The notes below the pieces were generated by a model that was not told the DNA's origin, ran no database searches, and saw only the letters and a list, made by a program, of their open reading frames with translations. From the NCBI RefSeq assembly GCF_900496995.4, contig NC_044019.1:5181501-5245500 (forward strand): DNA of 64,000 bases, given 5' to 3'. Of the stretch, positions 3,477 to 54,900 are shown one piece after another. Made by a program: the position numbers and the translations under genes. Positions within the stretch are counted from its first letter, which is position 1; each line of letters opens with the position of its first letter. Source of the DNA: Aquila chrysaetos chrysaetos. Its lineage: Eukaryota > Chordata > Aves > Accipitriformes > Accipitridae.

Positions 3477-3718
3477 TCAGCTGCATGACCCTTGGGACAG
3501 GGACAGGGACATTGGGGTATGGGGAGGGCTCGGGTTCTGAGCGCTTGGGCTGGCGGGTTGTGCCCCTACTTCCTCCAGTTTGGACAAAGGGGAGATGACG
3601 TCCCCACGCTGCATCAATGTGACCTTGCTGGGGTGGGGGCTGTTGAAGGAGATGGTGTAGAAAAGCCTCCGCTTGTGCTCCTGCACGATGTTGAACTCAA
3701 TGGCCCTCATCTCCTCGA
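3477..3718 (-). pseudogene. CATSPER4: CATSPER4 relic: terminal exon
   Basis: After a GCACAG acceptor the frame reads VEEMRAIEFNIVQEHKRR (first codon split), aligning with VEEVRAIRFNQEQ of mammalian CatSper4. It continues for about 60 residues without recognisable homology to a TGA at 3477-3479. Confidence 0.65.
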
Positions 3719-4049
3719 CTGTGCTGGGAGGCACAGCCAAGGGAAGCGTTAGGACCATCCTCCCCCCGCCCCAGTACCTAATACCTGCTCAATAAGTCTT
3801 CTCCAGGTTTTCCAACCATGGCTTTCCACCAGCAAAGTACTCTCCCATGCCAGAAGCCACAGGCTGATATCTCCCTGTGACCCCAATGCCTCCAGATGGG
3901 TGACAGCCACCAGCTTCCCCCCCAACCCAAAAGGGACAGCTCTCTCCAGAGAGGTTTTATCTTGGCTGTGTATAAATGGGCTGATTCCCCCCCATCCACC
4001 CTACAACCAAGCCAGCAAAGAGGCAGGAGGTTTGGAGCAGGTCTTAGAC

Positions 4050-4253
4050 CCTGAGCTCCTCCCGGATCTGTTTGTACTCTCTGATGTTCTCCTTGCTGCT
4101 TTCCAAGAGGCACTGGACTTCATGCAAGATCTCCTCGCCCAGTTTGCCCAACTTACTGTAGGTGAACAGGTCCTGGGAGACAAACGTGGAGACCCCATTC
4201 CCTATCACCTTCAGGCTGAGCTGAGGGTCCATGTTGACTTCTCCGCTGTCCAG
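4050..4253 (-). pseudogene. CATSPER4: CATSPER4 relic: C-terminal cytoplasmic helix exon
   Basis: 68 codons from a TTTCAG acceptor to a weak donor-like GTCTAA. The ending SKENIREYKQIREELR matches the C-terminal coiled-coil helix of CatSper4. The phase (0) does not fit the following block, which needs one carried base, so either the donor or the frame is damaged. Confidence 0.65.
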
Positions 4254-4505
4254 CTGAAAGGGTTAACACAGCAATGTGCCTATGTCTTCTCCTCCATCAG
4301 CTGCACACAAGGACCGACCCTCGTCATCAAACAAGCCAAGCCCAGAGTCCAGCGCTACAGAGATGGAAATCCTGGCCTTTAAATGCTGATGGTGAGTGCA
4401 AAGTGCAGATCTCTGCTATAACCACCTTCAAACTGCTGGAAGATCTCCACTTCTAGGCTCCTCCCCTCCTCCCATTGGTGTTTTTTGTAAGAAACACCCA
4501 TTTTA

Positions 4506-4581
4506 TCAAACAAAGGCCTCATTCATGATGAAGATGGTGAAGTAAATGGCCACCTTCATCTTCAGGGTCTGCCCTTCTTCC
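4506..4581 (-). pseudogene. CATSPER4: CATSPER4 relic: S6 start, terminated by stops
   Basis: Acceptor CCAACAG restores the split Gln codon. The block reads EEGQTLKMKVAIYFTIFIM and then NEAFV, after which TGA (4508-4506) and TAA follow. The family continues here through S6 (AFIGINLFV-like). A weak continuation may lie near 4440-4400. Confidence 0.65.
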
Positions 4582-4789
4582 CTGTTGGGGACACGGGCCA
4601 TCTGGTTGACAGTTGGTGGTGGCCACCTCGCCAGCACCAAGCCCCGAGGAAGCCTCTCAGCATCCACAGGAAAGGACTCCCCCCATGTGCCCCACATCTC
4701 TCCCAGGGTTGGGGGACAACACAGCTCAGCCCCAGCCGTCCCTGAGCCCCCCTGCCCCGTGGTGGGCTCAGTCCCTGCTGCGTGCTCAC

Positions 4790-4923
4790 TGGAAGGTCTC
4801 GTAGATGTCCAGCCTGCCGTCCAGCATGATGCAGGTGAAGAGCGAGTACAGGGCTTTCTCCAGGCCACCAAAATGGGCCAGGACAGATTTGCCAAACAGG
4901 ATGATGCCCAGCACCGAGAAGAT
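4790..4923 (-). pseudogene. CATSPER4: CATSPER4 relic: S5-pore exon
   Basis: Acceptor ATGCAG, donor GTGAGC, 134 nt, consistent phases. IFSVLGIILFGKS is followed by a turret and pore helix (EKALYSLFTCIM). The selectivity-filter position reads MLDGR where functional CatSper subunits carry TxDxW: the Asp is kept and the Thr and Trp are lost. Confidence 0.75.
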
Positions 4924-5263
4924 CTGCATGGGGACAGTGATGTGCATCCCAGCACCTTCTCCACGCTGGGAAGGATGCTCAGCATCCTCCAACCCCCAGC
5001 ACTGGGGCTCCCTGGCATAACCAGGGTCTGGCCAAGCTCCTCAGCCTCGGTGCTGGGAGCTGAGCCCCCGCCTCCAGCATGCCTGAGCCTGCCGGGGAGG
5101 TGGGATGGACCAACGTGGTGGGAGAGGATCATCCTGCTGCTGGGCTCTGTGCCTGCTTTCCCCACGGTCCCTGAGGTGCCGTGGCCAGCGCTGGACCCCA
5201 GTGGCCAAGATGCTTCCCCAGGCTGATGCTCCCAGTCCAGGCGGGCATTTCCCAGCCATTTAC

Positions 5264-5392
5264 CAGCATGGAGATAAAGAGGATGACCGTGATGTTACAG
5301 AGGTCAGGGATGACCTTGAGGATGGCCTGAAGCATCCTGGCCAGCCCACGGACCTGCAGCACCATCACCTCATCACCATCAGCCTCATCGCC
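5264..5392 (-). pseudogene. CATSPER4: CATSPER4 relic: S4-S5 exon with frameshift
   Basis: Acceptor GCCCCAG, donor GTAAAT. Entering in the phase set by the previous exon gives the voltage-sensor start RAMRLMVMR and then an immediate TGA. A different frame then continues as VRGLARMLQAILKVIPDL and the S5 start. The exon is 129 nt; in-phase joining needs 1 modulo 3, so it carries 2 surplus bases (net), in a TGATG-rich stretch. Confidence 0.7.
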
Positions 5393-5687
5393 CTGGGGCA
5401 AGGCGAGAGAGCCCATCACTGCACTGACCACGGCAGGGGAAGGAGCCAGGAGACTTGGGTCCCCTCCTGGCCTGAGGGTCTGGGAAGGGTCTGCACTGCT
5501 CCCCCTGCCCCCAAACCAGGGTAAAAAACTGAGGGTGACGAGCAAGCGATGACATTGCCTTTCCCAGTGCAGATCCAACATGTGGGATGTGGGATGGGGC
5601 CACCACGCCCGGACCACAGCATCTCTGCTCAGACCAACATGGGGACACCGGGGGCTTTGGGGTACGGGACCCCCTGCCCTCGCTCAC

Positions 5688-5785
5688 CTCAGGATCTGGA
5701 AAACCTTCTGGACGTTCCACTTGGGAATCAGGGCCCCCACCATGAGGCAGGCCACAAGGAAGAAGTTGAAGCCGTTCCAGATATC
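5688..5785 (-). pseudogene. CATSPER4: CATSPER4 relic: S3 to S4-linker block, acceptor missing
   Basis: Reads DIWNGFNFFLVACLMVGALI and on to the start of the voltage sensor (QILR), ending at a GTGAGC donor after two bases of a codon. Homology begins at GAT (5785), but the preceding bases are CTGCTG, not AG. The nearest AG (inside CCTCAG) would give the wrong phase against the previous exon. Confidence 0.65.
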
Positions 5786-6199
5786 CAGCAGGCAGAGGAG
5801 CAGGGGGCTGAGGCTGCGTTTGTAGACCCCAAATGAGGGCACTTCCCCTAATATTCCTCCCCCAGGAACATCCACAGGGGAGAGGGGACTACGGGGGGGT
5901 CCATGTGCCCCATGGCTATGCCCGTGGGGGGGGCACAGCCGGCCTGGTAGCAGGTGATGGGCCACCAGCCGAGCACGGGTGGCTAGCAGCCCCAATGCCA
6001 AACATCCCTGCGCCTGGGGGGGGGGGACACCGGCGGAGGTCCCGGTCCTTGCCAGGGTGGGGAACCAGAGGAGGGACCGCGGGGCCGGCTTTTCCTCCTC
6101 TGCCCTGGAGACGGCAGCAGCGAGCCACGGCCGCGGGGCCCGCACCGCCCCGGTCCCCCCCCCCGGCCTCGGCATCCCCGGGCAGCCGCAGCCGGAGTG

Positions 6200-6560
6200 T
6201 ATGAGGGAGCGTGGGATGGAGAGGTGCAGGGAGGGATGGACACGGGGAGGGAGGGATGGAGGGACACGGGGAAGGAGGGATGGAGGGACACTGGAGCCCA
6301 AGGACAGAGGGATGGAGGAGGGACTCAGGGATGCAGGGACAGAGGGATGGAGGGACGCAAGGATGGAGGAATGGAGGGACTCAGGGATGCAAGACAGAGG
6401 GACGGAGGGATATGGGGACATGGAGATGGAGGGACAGAGTGATGGAGGGAATTAGGGATGGAAGGATGGAAGGAATGAGGGATGCAGGGAGGGAGACAGG
6501 GGAATGCAGAGATGGAGGGATGAGGGACTCAGGGATCGAGGGACACAGGGAGGGAGACAT
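6200..6560. repeat. Purine-rich GGGATGGA minisatellite
   Basis: About 360 bases of degenerate repeats on the plus strand built from GGGATGGAGGGACA with an approximate 24-bp register at the start. It lies in a CATSPER4 relic intron. Strong purine strand bias. Confidence 0.85.
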
Positions 6561-6597
6561 GCTGAAGGCCTCCAGCCCAGCTCACCACAGGTCCCAC

Positions 6598-6699
6598 CTT
6601 CCAGTACAGCCAGAAACCTCTGAGCCAGTTAAGCAGGACCTCGGTGACCAGGGCCACCAGCACGACACTGTCTATGATATAGCTCAGCCAAAACTGGAA
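6598..6699 (-). pseudogene. CATSPER4: CATSPER4 relic: S2-S3 exon
   Basis: 34 codons from a TCTTCCAG acceptor to a GTGGGA donor. The segment SYIIDSVVLVALVTEVLLNW followed by LRGFWLYWK matches S2 and the short S2-S3 turn. The exon between S1 and S2 (about 12-16 residues) is not identified in 6700-7107. Confidence 0.75.
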
Positions 6700-7107
6700 C
6701 TGGAAGAGGAGGAGGCGAGAGCACCACCGGGCCCGGGGCAGGACTGAGGAACACGTGGCAACGGCCCACTGGGAAACCAGCTGAGGCTCTCTCATTGGAC
6801 CCACACTTGGTGTAAAAATACAAAGCCTTGTGGATTCTCCAGCAGCTAGTATGGATGAATTCACTGCCCAGCTGTGAGAATGGTGACCCCCCCCCCCTCT
6901 CCATGCACGAAGCTTGCAGGGAAGCAGCCACATTGGGGCATCTCTCCGCCATCAAGCTGGGCTGCGGGGTTTCATGGACCCATCCCGGAGGCAGCAAAAG
7001 GGCCAAGGAAAAGCCAAGGGAGCGGGAAGGGCCAGTGGCAGGCGGTGGTGGGCATGGCCGGCACTCACACTCCAGGGCAGCATCGTGGGGGTCTAGCTGG
7101 TGCTCAC

Positions 7108-7215
7108 CACCTCCTTGATGGCGATAAGCACAGACAAGATGAGCTTGACAGTGGGGTGGGTGAGCAAGTGGCCCATCCATACCTTGGCCATGTATTCCTT
7201 GTGGTCCCAGGAGTC
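7108..7215 (-). pseudogene. CATSPER4: CATSPER4 relic: S1 exon
   Basis: 36 codons between a CTCCAG acceptor and a GTGAGC donor, intact in phase 0. DSWDHKEYMAKVWMGHLL is followed by a hydrophobic run (VKLILSVLIAI) matching transmembrane segment S1. Confidence 0.75.
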
Positions 7216-7308
7216 CTGGAGGGGGAGGCAGGGTGGGGAGCCCAGAGAGGGTGTCCCTGCTGTCCCGGTGGGCTGTGGGTCCGGCACCCATCTCCCACCC
7301 CACCCTAC

Positions 7309-7377
7309 CTCACTGCACACCCCATCTCTGAAGTCAGCGAGCAGCCACTGCGGCTTCTCGTCTGGCTCCCGCTGGCA
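7309..7377 (-). pseudogene. CATSPER4: CATSPER4 relic: N-terminal cytoplasmic exon
   Basis: A block of 23 codons from a CCACCAG acceptor to a GTAGGG donor, reading CQREPDEKPQWLLADFRDG. It aligns with the cytoplasmic segment just before S1. It joins the next block in phase 0. Any upstream first exon is uncertain. Confidence 0.6.
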
Positions 7378-13165: not shown

Positions 13166-13704
13166 CTGCGGAGAGCGGGGACAGGGCTCAGGGCCACCCC
13201 GGCGGCGGGGGGTCCCCAGCCCTCCCCCTTCCCCACCGCACCACGACCCCCCCACATCCCCCAACGCACCCGGGGCCGGGCATCACCCACCCCAGCCCTA
13301 CATGTCCCCTCCGTGTCGTCGTCCCGTCCCCCGTCCCCAAACCCAACATATCCCCCCCCGCCCCAGCCTAAAGCAGCCCTTACCTTAAGGGAGAGCAGGG
13401 TGGCCTCGGAGGAGGGGTCGCGTCCCTTGGCCCCCTCCTCCAGCACGATCTGGAGGTCGAAGATGTAGTCGATGACATGCTGGAGGATCTCCACCTGGCT
13501 CACCTTGCTGCCTTGCGGGATGCCCGGCACCAGTTCCCGCAACTTGGAATAGCAATCGTTCATATCGTAGAGTAAGTTCATGGGTTCCTCCAAAGCCGGG
13601 CTCTTGTTGTTGCTCCCCCGGGCGATGGCCAGACTCTGCTCCGAGAGGCAGCAAACGGCCTCGTAGCAACTCCGGACGGATCGTACCGGGCTGATGGCTT
13701 TCAT
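13109..13704 (-). CDS. ID3: ID3, inhibitor of DNA binding 3 (complete coding region)
   Basis: Dominant-negative helix-loop-helix protein that sequesters E-proteins such as TCF3/E47 and blocks bHLH-driven differentiation; a classic BMP/SMAD target. The coding region is 13704-13384 joined to 13165-13109, giving 125 residues (mammalian ID3 is 119). The start [20 protein letters not shown] is ID3-type. The HLH region is at about residues 40-90, with [20 protein letters not shown] then [19 protein letters not shown], and there is no basic region before helix 1. The coding intron falls after LLSLK in phase 0. The second exon encodes [18 protein letters not shown], the ID3-specific tail. Neighbouring E2F2 on the same strand supports ID3 over ID1, ID2 or ID4. 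The coding region is intact. Confidence 0.97.
13384..13704 (-). CDS. ID3: ID3 coding exon 1
   Basis: 107 codons from the ATG at 13704-13702, carrying the whole HLH domain and ending TCC-CTT-AAG at a GTAAGG donor. Phase 0. Confidence 0.96.
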
Positions 13705-29001: not shown

Positions 29002-32000
29002 CCCGCTGGCCTGGCCCCAGGCAGGGGACAAGGGGTGACCCCGGGGGGGGGGGGGGGGCAGAGCGGGGGACACACGGTGCTGCCCGGGCACGACCCCCGG
29101 GGGGGGGCCGGAGGGAGGGGGGTATATTTAACTGAAAAAATCTCCCACCCCCAAAAAACCCCCACCCAACCCACGGGTGGAAACGGGCATTTACTGGGGT
29201 GTACTTGGGATGGCCCCCAGGGGGGACACAGGGCTGAAACTGGGGTCTGTCCCCCCCCCCTCATCGCTCCAGTCCGGTTCCATCCCGGTCCCCAGGAGGG
29301 GATGGGGCAGGTCCTGGTGGGGAGGGGGCATTACCTGTGCTGAGTTTGTGAGGCCTCTACCTGCTGCTGTTTGGGACCAAGTCCTGGCCTGGAGGGGGGG
29401 GGCAGAGAAAGGCCTGGGCCATAGGATGGGCATTTGAGGCAATTTCAGCCATTTCAACTATTTTGATGCTAAATGCCCTGTAGAAATAGAGCAGATGAGG
29501 GTTTACTGGGTTTCTACCCCTCAACCCCTTTAGGACCAGTGTTCCAAAACCCACTCAAATGCACCCAAATTCACCTCACTTTAGCTGATATTCCAGGACC
29601 TCACCATCCCCCTGCAACCAGGCAGCCCCCAGCCCCCCCATATCCCCCCCAGACTGATCTGCTGAGGAGTTTAAGCCGGTAGGAAGACCCCCCCCCCAGG
29701 TTTCCATGGCTCGGATGGTGTGGATGACTTGACAAAACCTGGGGGAGGTGAGGACAGCTGGGGATGGGGGGGCTGCTGGGGCGGGGGGTGATTTGCCTTA
29801 TATCTCATTCAGAAATAGCTGCCCTGGCACTGGGGGCCAGATCCTGCACAGAGGGGTCAAGCAGCCACCTCCCAGCTGGGCCTGAAGGATGCAGGATGGG
29901 GCAGAATCTGGGGGTGCATCTGTATTGTGGGCCCCCCCATTTCATCCCAGCCCCAGGGCCATGCACTATGGGGCAGAGAGGGTCTCTGGGGGGGTCTACA
30001 CAGAGGAGAAAGAGGGATCGTGTAGGGCTCCTATGGTAACCCTATAGGGATCATGTCTGGGGGGGGGGGTACGGATGCATCTAGAGTTCTATAGGGACAG
30101 GGGATGGGGGCAGTCCCAGTCCCCTAATCTGCTGTGACTTTTGTCCCCCCAGTGCCCGCTCCGGGGGGGGAACAGATTGGTCCCAGCACAGGGCGGGTGA
30201 TGGAGGTCCCGGGGCCGAGGGGGGTGATGAGGGTTTGGGGATGGAGCAGGGACCCCAGGACTTTCCTCCACCGCTGCGTGCCCCCAGCCATCGGCCCCAG
30301 CGTTTCATGTTCACCACGGACCTTGATTTAACGTCACACAATTAAGGCACATGGTGAATGCCAAAGGGGGGGCTGGCCCGGGCTGGGGGGCGCGCGCTCG
30401 CCAAAGGAGGAGCGGGGAGATGCCAAAAAGCCTGAGCAGCAGCACCCTGCTGCCACGGGCCGGTAAGGGAACACGCTGCCGGACCCTCAGGGAGGAATGG
30501 GGCTGGGAGGGGGCTGGCACCCCCAGCCATCCTCTCCCCCCTCCCCCTGGATCCCTCCAGCCTCCCCATCTCCCCGCCAACTCTCTACAGCCCTGTTTGC
30601 GCTCCCCAAAGCCCACCGGCTGCCCCCGACTCCATCTAGTCCCACCCAAGACCATCAGGGCAGACCAGGACCCCCAAGCTGCCCCCCATCCTGACCCCCC
30701 CCAGCTCTGCCAGGGACTGGGATGCAAGCCCAGGAGAGGGGGTGCAGGCCCAGGGCACCTCCCAAATCCCCCCCCCCCCCAACCCACAGAGCGCCAAACC
30801 TGGACCCTTCCAATATTTTCTCTCTCCAGGAGCGGGTGCTGCTGCCTTCAGAGGTGCTGGAACTGATGGTGTGGGAAGGGGGAACACAGACAGAGGACAT
30901 TTTGGAGGAAGGGAGAAGCTGAAAGCCCTTAATGAGCCTTCATTAGCCGGGGAAGAGGAGAACAAGAACAACGATCGACCCAGCTCTTCTCCTGGCAAGT
31001 CAGGAGCAGCGGGGAAGCATCGGTCCCCATCCCACCACCCAGCCCCTCCGCACCCTGCACCGCCAGCTTCCCACCCGGCTGCTCCCCACAGCTCCCCACC
31101 GATGGGGGAAGAGACACGGTGACTGCTCCAGCATTTTTTTCAGCCAAACTTTGCCCAGATGGTTTTGCAGCCCCGGCATTCCCACTGAGCCGCTGTTTCT
31201 CCCGTGTTTCCAGCCGCCTCTGGCATACACCCTCCCACCTCGACTCCAAGCCCGGAGCAGCCACTGATGCCCCACGCTCCTGGGGGCCATGTTTCAGATG
31301 GAGGTTTTACCCACTGCAGCCCCTGGAGCTGAAGAAGGGCTGGATAAGTCACTCCTAGGAGGGAAAGCATCGCTGCCCCGGCCCACCTCAGCTGGCCTTT
31401 CCTGCAGCTCCAGGTTTATCCGTGTTTGTCCCAGCAAGATGCTTTTTGGGCTCTCGGGATTACAGCTCCCCCAGGACTAATCCAGGAACCCATTCATCAC
31501 CACAGGCTGCAGCAGAGCTGACATCTTCTCCCTCCGAGAATACTTTTTGCTGCTTTTCCTGCACAGAGCACAAGGAGACTCTACTTTTCCCCATGTCCTG
31601 CTCTCCCCTGCCAAGCAATTCGCCCAGGACCAGCGTCTCACCACCGAGGATTTGCTGCTGTCGGTGTCTCACCCAAGGCTCGTAGCTGCCAGCGTCCCTG
31701 CAGCCAGGCCAGCTCGGCGCTGAGCCCTGCATCTCTCCCAGGACCCACTCGCAGCCTCGGCAGCATGAAGCCACATTTGCTGCATCCTTGTCGTCCCATG
31801 GGCCCTGTGCGCCCCAACCACCCCGTTCCCCCCAGCAGCCTGGGGTACCCCCTGCCCTCTGGAGAGCAGCAAGGGCAGCGGAGACACCGAGCACCTGGAC
31901 GGATGTCCTCACAGGCAACATGCTCCTTTCTCATCCCAGATCTTCGCATTCCCATCCCTGGTACCCGAAACTCAGGGAGGGCAGGACCAGGTGCTGCATT

Positions 32001-48900: not shown

Positions 48901-51900
48901 GTCCATCTGCTCGGATAGCAAGCAGGAATCGAACTGCAAATCAGACAAAGGTTTAGGCAAGTTGAAGCCAAGTGAAACAATTACAGCTTGCTAGAAGTTC
49001 AAAACAAGCCAAACCTTGAGACATTTAAGCTTCAAGGAACAGGAATGCAGAACATTAACATATCGCCGCCATCCAAAGACTGGTGGCAGAGACAAAGAGC
49101 TGGTAGCGATGGGATTTCCCTGACACAAAAGCAGCTTGACAGACCGCAGGCAGGGAGCTGCGCCACCGGCTGCTGCCAGAGCAGCATTTTAACTTTCCAG
49201 GGCCTCAAGTCTGGTTTCTGGTATATTTTTTAATCCAGGTGATTACCTGAGATGCTTCAAAGCAGACATAGCATGGCTTGGGCTTTTTTTGCCACCCGCA
49301 GTTCCAGGGTCGCCATCAGCATTCACTCCAGGGGAAAAAAAAAACCCTCCATGAGCAAAAACGACTGCTTCTCAATGAAACTGTGAAAGAGCAGTTACAG
49401 AAACCTCAACCATCTTCAAGGCTGCGTCAGCAAGCAATCGAGGAGGTCAAACTGTTGCTTAAAGAAAGACCAAGTCACTTCCTCTGTGCCGGATGTTACA
49501 GGGCAGGGGCCCTGAGCATGCAACAAAGAGTGAGTCAATGGTAAAAAGCCAACACCAACTGTATATCTACAAGACTCCCTCCTTGCCGATGAATTCCAGA
49601 GACATATGACTGAATTCCCTTTCAAAGAATAAATGTTTTCCTAATCAACCGCTTCCGCAATGGAGTGCCACACTGAATCAACTCGAACATCATTTAGAAA
49701 GGAGGCGCTGGCACATTGAACATCGATCAGCTACCGTTTCTGCTTCTGACCCTCATACACTAGCACGTCTCAAAGAAATTGAAGAAAGCAGGGGAGGAGA
49801 CTTCAAAATGCAATTAGAAAGATGAATAAAGGTGGTTTACAGTTTTAAGAAAATTGCTAAGCCACATTTTTAATATCTTACTGATTTTCAGACAGTACAA
49901 ACAACTTGCAAATGCAGCAGCTTTCCAGAAGAGACCATCAGTCTGTCCACTTTTCCCCCAGCCTTCTCCACTCTGTTGCTCTTCCTTCTGCTTGCTACCT
50001 GCTTACATTTACTCAGTATTAACTCTTCTCATCATCCAACCCCCCCCTGCCCTGCATTCTCTCACTGTGCCAAGGCCTGCCTCTCTCACACTGCAAACTG
50101 TTGCTTCCTAAAGTCAGATCTGGAGCATGTGAGAATTCCCACTTCCTAAGATGTCCTGCACAGACTAGGTTTCTGATTGCATTCAAAATCTCAGTTAGTA
50201 AAAGAGAAATCACCACTTCAGTACAGGCTGGATACCAAGTGGAACAATTTTACAACGTGAAGTCACGCAAAATATTCAGGTTCTCACAAAAATCAAGTTT
50301 ACACCTCCACACTTTGCAATGTATTCCTCCCTTACAGATTTTCTTCAAGCACCGTTAAGTGCTAGGGTATCAGTCGCAAAACGTGACCACCTTTGTGTAT
50401 GGGTGATGCTATTTATACAGACAATGCTCCAAGTAAAATATATAAAAAATTAAAAACTGCATTCACTGTCACAGTGAGCAGTTGCAGCTCCCAATTCTGT
50501 TCTTCAACTGCTGGGTGGAAAATACCCCATTGCTGAAACTAAAGAGATCATCAGAAAATTTGGCAAACTACCAGAAAGCTCTGCTAATGCTAATTTGTAA
50601 TTACTATTTTGATCAAATACAAGCAAGACCCCTATTGTGGGGAAGGTCAGCCACAGGTGACTTTAACACGGCTGTATCCAAGTAAGATTTAAGGCCCACT
50701 GGTCACTGAATTTTGGGCAGAATTTTCAATTAGCAATCCTCCTATTAACGAATCAATGGTGACAGCAAGCTTCGAGCCAACGGACCCAAGCGGCAAGCCG
50801 GCACAGCTGCAGGCAGGCGGCAAGCACAGCTCACATGCCAGGCTGTTGGGCAGTGCAGGCAGTGCCCACGCAGGCGACAGCCCACCGGCTTCAAATACAG
50901 CCAAGCTTGCTGCCAAGAGGAACAGAACGACCCACTCCGCATCCGCCAGAGAGAGGACAAGTAGTTGTGGACTTAAATTGCAGCAAGGGAGATTTAGGTT
51001 GGGCATTAGACAAAGCCTTCTAACAGGAAGGATAATTAAGCATAGGAATAGATTGCCTGGGGAGGGACAGGAACTGCCATTCCTGAAGGTTTTACAAGCG
51101 GTGGGAAACATCTGTCACACTGACCCCACTTTGGGTAGGGGGTGGATTAGGCAGCTATTCAAACACCCGGCTCTGTTTTCTAACAACTCCCCGAACCCCC
51201 CACTGATCTCCTACTTTAAACTGTTCTGATCCAGGAGCTGACAATAGCACAGAAATAAATTTTGTTTAGAATACAGCACTCGGGGAAGGCTGAGATTTAG
51301 AGCAACCAAACGGCAGTCGATTGCAGGCAGGGCCAGGGCAAGCCTCCTCACACCGCTCTGCTGGGGTGCCGGCACCTGTTTCCACCCCAAATCTGGGCTG
51401 CCATTTGGGTAGCGGGTTCCACGTGCGAGCACGCAGCTAGCCAAAAGGCAGACTGATGCCCACCAAGCTTCCTCACAAGCCCATGGCTTCAGGCCCCAGA
51501 TTTAGTCCAGCACAAGGCAGCCCTCCTCCATCTCCTGCCCCGCAGGACTTCGCCGAGACAGACAAACAAGTTACCTTTTTAACATTTTCCTCCTCCTCTT
51601 GGCGTTTCTCATAGTGTGAGAAGTCATCAAAGATGGAGGTGGTGTGCTTGTAGGTGGCAATAATTTTCAACACCTGCTTAGCCTTTTCCAGAGGCACCTC
51701 CTGAGTGTCCCTGGAGTTGGTCACTGGTTTATTCTCGTTGTTCTCTAGGCGGATGTGTCGCAGCTGACTGTTGGGAACGTCCTTCACAAAAATCCACCTG
51801 ACATCAAAACGTCCCTTCCACTTGTCCTGGGACCACACACCCGCACACGTGTTATAGTCCACAGCAGATTTCATTTCTGCTACTCCGCAGAAGTGACCAC

Positions 51901-54900
51901 TACCGTTGACACTGAACAGTAAGTAAACAGGGCCCTTCCCGTTCATGGAGCGATAGGCGGCATCCAGTCTCTTGTTGCCGTGCTCTGTACTGCACCAGAT
52001 GTTATATTTAATGGAACGGTGGATATCGTCCTCAGAGTAACTCTTAATGATGAAAACCCGGCCATGTTTTGGGTTCCAGTCAAAATCCTTGGGGTTGTAG
52101 TTGTTGATGGATCTCAACTTCTCCAAGACCGGGTGCGGCTCCGAAGGAGCAGAACCAGAACTGGCCTGAGACTGTCCCACTCCATTACCATCCACTCCGT
52201 TTTGACCGAACCCGTTGCCGCGATTACGAGGGGCAACCCAGCGGGTGGGCTGAGCCGCCTGCTGCGGCACGGGCAGCTGGGCCGGCTGCGGCGGCGGCGG
52301 GGGCAGCGGCTGGGGCTGCTGCCCGCTTGAAGCCTGTGCCACCGGTGGGCTGTTATTGATCTGCTGACCCACGGGCTGGGGGGACACCTGGGCTGGCTGC
52401 TGACCAATATTCTGAACTAAGGCCTGCGACGGGGCTTTTGCCACCGGCCCTTTGTTATCCCAAGTTCCAATATCCATGTTATGTTTTATTGGAGGTGGTG
52501 GAAGACTCGAACCTGCAATGCCATTCTTGGTCTTCAGCTTGGGCTGCTGCTTAGCTGGTTTACTAGCGATGTCAGCCCAGGAGGTCGGCTTTGGAGGAGC
52601 AATAGTAGCTGGAGGCAAACTGTTAGATGCCACGATATTACTGGTAATGGATCCACTACCGACAGCTGAACCAACGACTTTCGGGACACTGCTTGCAACA
52701 TCTGTGCTGCCCAGCTTCAGAGCTGCCATCCCTTGGTCAATGGTGTTCATGCCAGGAGCCTTGTTCAGAGTCTCGTTAGCAAAGGCAGATTGCCCATCGA
52801 TCATGGCTCCACCCAGCGAGCTAGGGGCATAGGCGTAATTGCTACTATAGCCAGAGCTTTGAGTGGATTGTCCCTGAGAACTGTTATTCCCCCAAGCCGA
52901 AAAGTCAATCCCACTTGGAAAGAAGTTAAAGCCGTGCTGCCCGAGAAATGGAGTGCTGCCAAGGGCCCCTGGCTGCCCGAACATCGCGTCTGGGAGAAAG
53001 TGAGGCTCCCCGTTGCTCAGCTGTCCGTAAGAGGTTAGGTAGGGCATGGGTGGGTCACCCCCTGTAGACCAGGCAGCTTCACCTAAGGAGTAGGAGAATC
53101 CAATGGAGGGACTGTAGTAGTTTGGTAAGTAGGAATCGGACATTGCAGTATATGCATTATTCTGGAAAAAAAAAACAACAACAACAAACCAAAAAATAAG
53201 CACTGAATAATTAGAAGGAGTTGAACAAATTTCAAGGGACCAGGAATAAAAGCTATGTTAGGCTTCCCGTGCCCCACCCCTCCCTACCTTAGGGCTGGGC
53301 AGATAAACAGGCCCAGCCTTGAAACACCTCCTTTGTTACAAGTGTTCTAAAAACGGTTTCATTGCCAGAAAGATTAAACACAAAGGCTTAGCAAGCTTCC
53401 CATGCTGAGATGGGAGCGCACTGTGTTCCTGATGCATGATGTGCGACTGGACACTGGACTGCCCCAGAGCTCCAGCTCAGGCTGTAAAACCAGTATCTTA
53501 CCCAGCATCCAAATACTATCTTCTACTTTTTGTAGCTGCTACCAAAGAGGGCTTTTCTTGCCTGTGTACCATACTTATCAGCCCTTATTCTGTTGTCTGA
53601 GGGAGGGCTTGGGGGAAGGATGCAGAGAAGTGGAATATGGAGGAAAAGTCCCGTGGAAGTGCACTGCCAAAATCATGGATGTCCCTAATTGCCTGCCTTA
53701 AACTGAACTACCCATGAAAACAGCTTTATCCCCACAATTTAAAGTTTCAGAGCTCATAATACTCCAAGAACTTGCAAAGAAACAGGGATTTAAAGCCTAC
53801 TCCTCAAAACACAAATTGCTCCAGTGCTGCAGGCACATACTAAAAAAATACCTGAAAATGAGGAGTAATCAACAGGGTTTCAATAGGAGCCTTTTATAGC
53901 ATGGTGACAGCAGCTGCTCAAGAAAGCAGGCTTCAAATTCAGAGGAAAAAAGGCTGCTCCATGCCTTGGTCTCCCTTTGTAACATCCAAGTAGCCTTCAG
54001 GTTACAAAAACAAATGCCTAATTTTACAATTAGGGAACTCTCAGACATCACCAGGATTTGCTTACATGAAAAACATCTGTCATTTTGCATTCAAACCAAT
54101 GCCCCCTCCAGGGAGCGGTTAAAAGCCACGCTAATGGACATTATCATCCAGTAATTTGAACCTGTGTGCAGACAGCCTCGTGCTATACAGCCGCTTACAT
54201 GCCAACCCAATGCAGATGAGATGAAAGTCAGATTCAGTTCCCATTTAAAAGCTTGGCTTGCAGCAGGCTCTACTCCATTTTTCGTTGAATCATGTTTTCA
54301 CGTGCCAAGTGCAGCTCCCGAAGGACTTCATGCCATACTGAAATCTATGGAGGCTCTCAAGATGGCTCTGGCACCCTCCAGAAATAGCTGGTTTGCCTCT
54401 CCACCTTCCACCGAGTTAAAGGAAAGCAACAGGTTTGGGGCTAACACAGCCCCAACTTTACAACAATTAATAGGAATTATATAACACTGTTTTCAAAGAC
54501 AAGGTTTGTTTTGTTGAATAAGACAAAAAAGCTAAAAAGCTTTCTGTGGTACTTCATGGTGTGAATGCATGAAAACTCAGAGACGCTCTCTCCATCCTTT
54601 CCATTTTCCCAAAGAAGGGGTCCCAAAAGCAAATTAATAACTAAACTAACTCTTATCCAGGGTATGGTTTTACTAACTGAGGAACTCAGGCCAGCTAAAC
54701 CCAAACCCATGAACAGTCTTTAGGGCTCAATCTGTCCAAAAGCACAAATACTGACACTGACTAATTTGTAAGGCAAATGAAGGAACTTAAAAAAAGAAAA
54801 AAAAATATTATTTTGAACAAGCAAAGTCTCTTCAGAAGATAATCCCCTCAACTATAAAAGTAACAATACACTCTCCTGGAAAGTAGCTTTAATGGAACAT

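Follow-up and report, generated by a model that had tools for sequence, protein, structure and literature searches.

A probable unitary pseudogene of the sperm channel subunit CATSPER4 between E2F2-like exons and ID3

We analysed a stretch of 64,000 nucleotides, referred to here as the window (contig 16, positions 5181501-5245500), from a genome of 1.2337 Gb in 144 contigs, and describe in it the relic of CATSPER4, which encodes one of the four pore subunits of the sperm calcium channel CatSper. Eight exon-like blocks lie on the minus strand between 7215 and ~3567 in the order of mouse CatSper4, running from the region before helix S1 to the C terminus. Very probably they are what is left of a unitary pseudogene of CATSPER4, which is also what the initial annotation had proposed: the broken gene is present as a single copy, no second one having been found, it has kept its introns, and it carries disabling changes that include stops and a frameshift. 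Judged from its sequence, CATSPER4 as it stands would be unable to make a channel.

Results

The eight blocks are given below in window coordinates, with the splice signals at their borders and the evidence that placed them.

7069..7215, minus strand: pre-S1/S1 exon; acceptor CCAG, donor GTGAGT; the 41st of its 49 codons is TAG (7095-7093); placed by tblastn and by reading on to the donor
6598..6699, minus strand: S2 exon; acceptor CCAG, donor GTGGGA; placed by tblastn; the genome's second-best CatSper4 match
5688..5785, minus strand: S3 exon; CTG at the expected AG acceptor, exon-final AG followed by donor GTGAGC; placed by shuffles of its interval
5264..5392, minus strand: S4/S5 exon; acceptor CCCCAG, donor GTAAAT; out of frame with the S3 exon, meeting a TGA; placed by tblastn and shuffles
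4790..4923, minus strand: exon for the end of S5, the pore helix and the filter; acceptor GCAG, donor GTGAGC; placed by tblastn; the genome's best CatSper4 match
4479..4581, minus strand: S6 exon; acceptor AACAG, no donor seen; S6 interrupted halfway by TGA TAA (4508-4503); placed by shuffles and translation
4045..4253, minus strand: C-terminal exon A (KENIREYKQIREEL); acceptor TTTCAG, no recognisable donor where one is expected; placed by tblastn and shuffles
3477..3718, minus strand: C-terminal exon B (VEEMRAIEFN...); acceptor CACAG; alignment reaching ~3567, with the frame ending at a TGA (3479-3477); weak

Residues 48-442 of mouse CatSper4 (PDB chain 7eeb_D) served as the tblastn query against the window. 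The five top matches follow the order of the protein, each of them on the minus strand: pre-S1/S1 (7215-7123; expectation value (E) 1e-3, 35% identity), S2 (6708-6592; E 8e-8, 51%), S4/S5 (5359-5180; E 2e-3, 33%), the pore (4929-4789; E 5.6e-10, 55%) and C-terminal exon A (4151-4047; E 3e-3, 43%), the last aligning with mouse residues past the channel domain. The sixth match falls elsewhere in the window (E 0.66), and the S3 block (5785-5687) reaches only E 2.6, with three matches elsewhere in the window ranking ahead of it or level. A colinear chain of four matches scores 162.1 bits. When the window was shuffled 100 times by dinucleotides, the best chain reached 68.1 at most (mean 38.5, standard deviation 10.8). 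Five blocks were also assessed singly by confining the alignment to the interval where the corresponding mouse segment should lie, with 500 shuffles each. The scores of the S3 (44), S4/S5 (58) and C-terminal A (69) blocks were reached by 0 of 500 shuffles, that of the S6 block (42) by 1 of 500 and that of C-terminal exon B (37), the weakest block, by 5 of 500. Between S6 and C-terminal exon A, in the stretch behind S6, no CatSper4 block was found. The initial annotation had counted nine ordered blocks; eight are supported, the last of them weakly, and the ninth, near 7377-7306, precedes the start of the query.

Comparison of mouse CatSper1-4 with the window favours CatSper4. The pore exon scores 52.8 bits with CatSper4, 33.9 with CatSper3 and 23.5 with CatSper1, and the S2 exon 45.8 bits with CatSper4 and 31.6 with CatSper2. 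CatSper2 also touches the S3 block (E 4.2), and CatSper4 is the only one of the four to match five blocks. Taken with the order of the blocks and the presence of a C-terminal region beyond the channel domain, these scores point to an orthologue of CATSPER4. In the genome-wide search, in which 22 of 22 first-look candidates were scored, the two best CatSper4 matches both lie at the relic (E 6.9e-7 and 6.5e-4) and the third lies elsewhere (E 0.126), so that no second CATSPER4 with E < 0.1 was found in the 1.23-Gb assembly.

Splice borders have survived at most of the blocks, with AG acceptors at seven of the eight and GT donors at the expected place in five. The intron between the S2 and S3 blocks also holds a GGATGGAGGGA-like repeat run (window 6200-6560).

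An in-frame TAG follows S1. The acceptor of the S3 exon is CTG, not AG, and the nearest upstream AGs would, by our own count, shift the frame. The S3 exon ends in phase 2; read in that phase the S4/S5 exon meets a TGA, and its CatSper4-like part lies in another frame, which indicates a frameshift at S4. In the pore, mouse TQDGW reads MLDGR (QDGW to LDGR), and S6 is interrupted in mid-helix by TGA TAA. Neither the S6 block nor C-terminal exon A is followed by a recognisable donor. In-frame stops number three in the 350 codons of recognisable blocks, and there is no open frame through the six helices and the pore, which is broken by the TAG after S1, the frameshift at S4 and the two stops in S6.

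The neighbours of the relic were located with human ID3 and E2F2 as the only ID and E2F probes.

13423..13704, minus strand: ID3 coding exon, flanking gene; human ID3 by tblastn, E 4.5e-39, 71%; HLH domain, 5.1e-14
Contig 16, ~5175302-5176887, minus strand: E2F2-like exons; human E2F2 probe without its first exon; E2F domains

The nearest E2F2-like exon found lies ~4.6 kb before the window start. Inside the window, probes for E2F2 (without its first exon), RPL11, PITHD1 and LYPLA2 gave no match at E 1e-3, and Pfam recognised no E2F domain in ten frames of 261-2838. With E2F2-like exons on one side and ID3 on the other, and with the order of the blocks and their chain score, the placing of a CATSPER4 relic between E2F2 and ID3 in the initial annotation holds. 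Human CATSPER4 has CNKSR1 as a neighbour; the site may differ from the mammalian one, as the initial annotation held.

The same genome contains remains of other CatSper genes. CATSPER3 is left in five blocks, 30-56% identical to mouse, on the minus strand of contig 22, four of them at 18608802-18615099 and a fifth, weak one upstream (E 0.011, to 18615968); there is one TAA between pore and S6, the aligned stretches being otherwise free of stops, and this relic looks better kept than that of CATSPER4. CATSPERB is represented by four ordered pieces on contig 2 (19228703-19234256; E 4.5e-4, 0.0017, 0.027 and 0.41), two of which exceed the Pfam cut-off and one of which has a TAA. A continuous 858-base match to CATSPERD without introns, covering its beta-propeller and holding one TGA, lies on the minus strand of contig 4 (48318059-48318916), with a second piece adjoining it and a domain recognised at 5.4e-20 in part of the match; it is perhaps a retrocopy dating from before germ-line expression of the gene ceased.

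For CATSPER1 the best genome match has E 2.3e-5 and aligns the first 86 query residues at 29% identity; the two best places overlap Ion_trans matches and are therefore read as other channels, and among the weaker matches two hold TAG stops (E 0.05 and 0.18) and one has E 0.49. The best match of CATSPER2 has E 0.013 and 25% identity, and its two best places likewise overlap general Ion_trans matches. As far as the matches of CATSPER1 and CATSPER2 were followed, to the two best places each, they are other channels only. CATSPERG gave no match in the genome, a result that is uninformative because the same search was also silent in 14 control genomes. Intact copies of the partner subunits CATSPER1-3 and CATSPERB were not found, stops being present in CATSPER3 and CATSPERB. 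CATSPER4 would be one of several broken CatSper genes in this genome.

Discussion

The ordered blocks, the intron borders, the lesions, the failure to find a second copy and the stops in CATSPER3 and CATSPERB all support a pseudogene of CATSPER4. Several points weigh against it. The evidence comes from one genome, and the stops and the frameshift were read in one assembly and may be assembly errors. An upstream GTGAGC donor could splice round the TAG after S1. Pfam recognised no family above its cut-off in ten raw frames of the relic (Ion_trans reached 0.22 in one frame), nor did it recognise the S2 and pore exons as a channel. In PMC11289002, birds are said to lack only CatSper1, and the BLAST matches for CatSper4 include three birds, which would oppose a general loss if these are neognaths; six palaeognath names are absent from its main text.

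The alternative donor before the S1 stop, together with an S2 donor and an S4/S5 acceptor that by our own reading could join in phase 0, would allow a truncated or re-spliced CATSPER4 product to be still expressed, for example from the N-terminal exons with S3 skipped. Such a product is very unlikely to serve as an explanation, since it would be without S3 and part of S4 and would still meet the TGA TAA in S6, round which no splice route was seen; moreover, its partners CATSPER3 and CATSPERB have stops, and neither CATSPER1 nor CATSPER2 was recognised.

That the blocks match CatSper4 by chance, or are left over from a different six-helix channel (a sodium or calcium channel or a different CatSper), could be argued from the shortness of the single exons, from the Pfam results and from phmmer searches of the PDB, which gave no CatSper from one raw frame and no match at all from the pore exon alone. 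In our opinion these misses arise because the exons are short and decayed; tblastn with the whole mouse protein does find them. None of 100 shuffles equals the blocks in order, strand and spacing, and KENIREYKQIREEL belongs to a C-terminal block that is not part of the channel domain, which leaves almost no room for this explanation. Another channel was rejected on the comparison of the four mouse subunits, in which CatSper4 beats CatSper1-3, and the better match to a different channel that the initial annotation had cautioned about was not found. Hardly any weight can be given, either, to a dead duplicate or retrocopy whose parent gene is alive elsewhere. Nothing at CATSPER4 itself speaks for it, and the intronless CATSPERD-like match on another contig indicates that such copies may happen; the failure to find another CatSper4 match with E < 0.1 in the 1.23-Gb assembly stands against a duplicate, and a retrocopy was rejected because the introns are kept.

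With its original introns, CATSPER4 would have occupied the minus strand of the E2F2-ID3 interval until it was no longer maintained by selection in the ancestry of this animal, which is presumably a neognath bird; the loss would have come after its sperm ceased to need the CatSper channel. Decay since then would have proceeded by point changes, a small frameshift and the loss of splice sites, leaving a relic that is predicted to have no present channel role.

Loss of CatSper in birds, which the initial annotation had mentioned, is already on record, and PMC2572835, PMC6679542 and PMC6660944 agree on it. Cai and Clapham (2008; PMC2572835) described birds as without CatSper genes, chicken keeping short fragments of CatSper-beta, 2 and 3, and reported a CatSper3 fragment in zebra finch. 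In PMC6679542, CATSPER1, 4 and G are missing in Neognathae and present in ratites, the losses being called tentative by the authors, and zebra finch and chicken are said to have 'no trace' of CATSPER4. CatSper is conserved only in Apteryx australis and Tinamus guttatus according to PMC6660944, with three pore subunits intact in ostrich, and in PMC4290089 CATSPERB is found among birds only in a ratite. Searches of the open-access literature listed no CATSPER4 relic reported from any neognath, subscription papers and supplements being outside the search. The loss of CatSper in neognath birds is already in print, and the relic documents more closely what has been reported for most birds; a readable CATSPER4 corpse with named lesions looks new.

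The relic resembles mouse and human CATSPER4 in its eight ordered blocks, 33-55% identical in the tblastn matches and clearest in the S2, pore and C-terminal A exons, and differs from them in its stops, frameshift, lost acceptor, LDGR pore and missing block after S6. As in chicken and zebra finch (PMC2572835; PMC6679542), decayed CatSper subunits have persisted, but the fragments described in the accessible text for those birds are pieces of CATSPER2, 3, B, D or E and none is of CATSPER4. The palaeognath genes of kiwi, tinamou and ostrich belong to the same family and are reported in PMC6660944 and PMC6679542 as present, three pore subunits being intact in ostrich; in the present genome the gene is broken. 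If the animal is a neognath, the view that CATSPER4 has vanished from this group without trace needs correcting.

How long ago CATSPER4 was released from selection can be estimated only roughly. Three stops in 350 codons correspond to 44 million years without constraint (9-129 million years), a crude value that gives no firm date. The model covers recognisable blocks only, with 3.4% of random changes yielding a stop under an assumed transition bias of 3, and uses what we take to be the neutral rate, 1.9e-9 per site per year; at this assumed rate ~6 stops would be expected over 90 million years, against the three observed. The description of the relic as datable in the initial annotation is accordingly reduced to this wide range. 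The estimate fits a single loss at the base of the neognaths and also fits a later loss. It is possible, although we consider it unlikely, that selection still maintained CATSPER4 when the radiation of modern birds was well advanced, and that its loss in this lineage was late and separate. Were that so, the low number of stops would imply several independent losses of CatSper among neognaths and not one at their root.

The relic is no surprise in itself; it is useful for dating the loss across birds. Lying in the old place with named lesions, it tells where to look in bird assemblies, namely in the E2F2-ID3 interval, and in this way plain records of absence could be replaced by a tree of dated losses.

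Other features of the window

A hairpin of the mir-124 family lies on the plus strand at window 30299-30369 (56.7 bits; Rfam cut-off 49). Its mature arm, AAGGCACATGGTGAATGCC, is two bases off miR-124, with the seed intact. A long exon with a YTH domain (E 3.2e-50) lies on the minus strand at 51473-53257 and is probably YTHDF2. Since human YTHDF2 is megabases away from ID3, gene order may be rearranged here.

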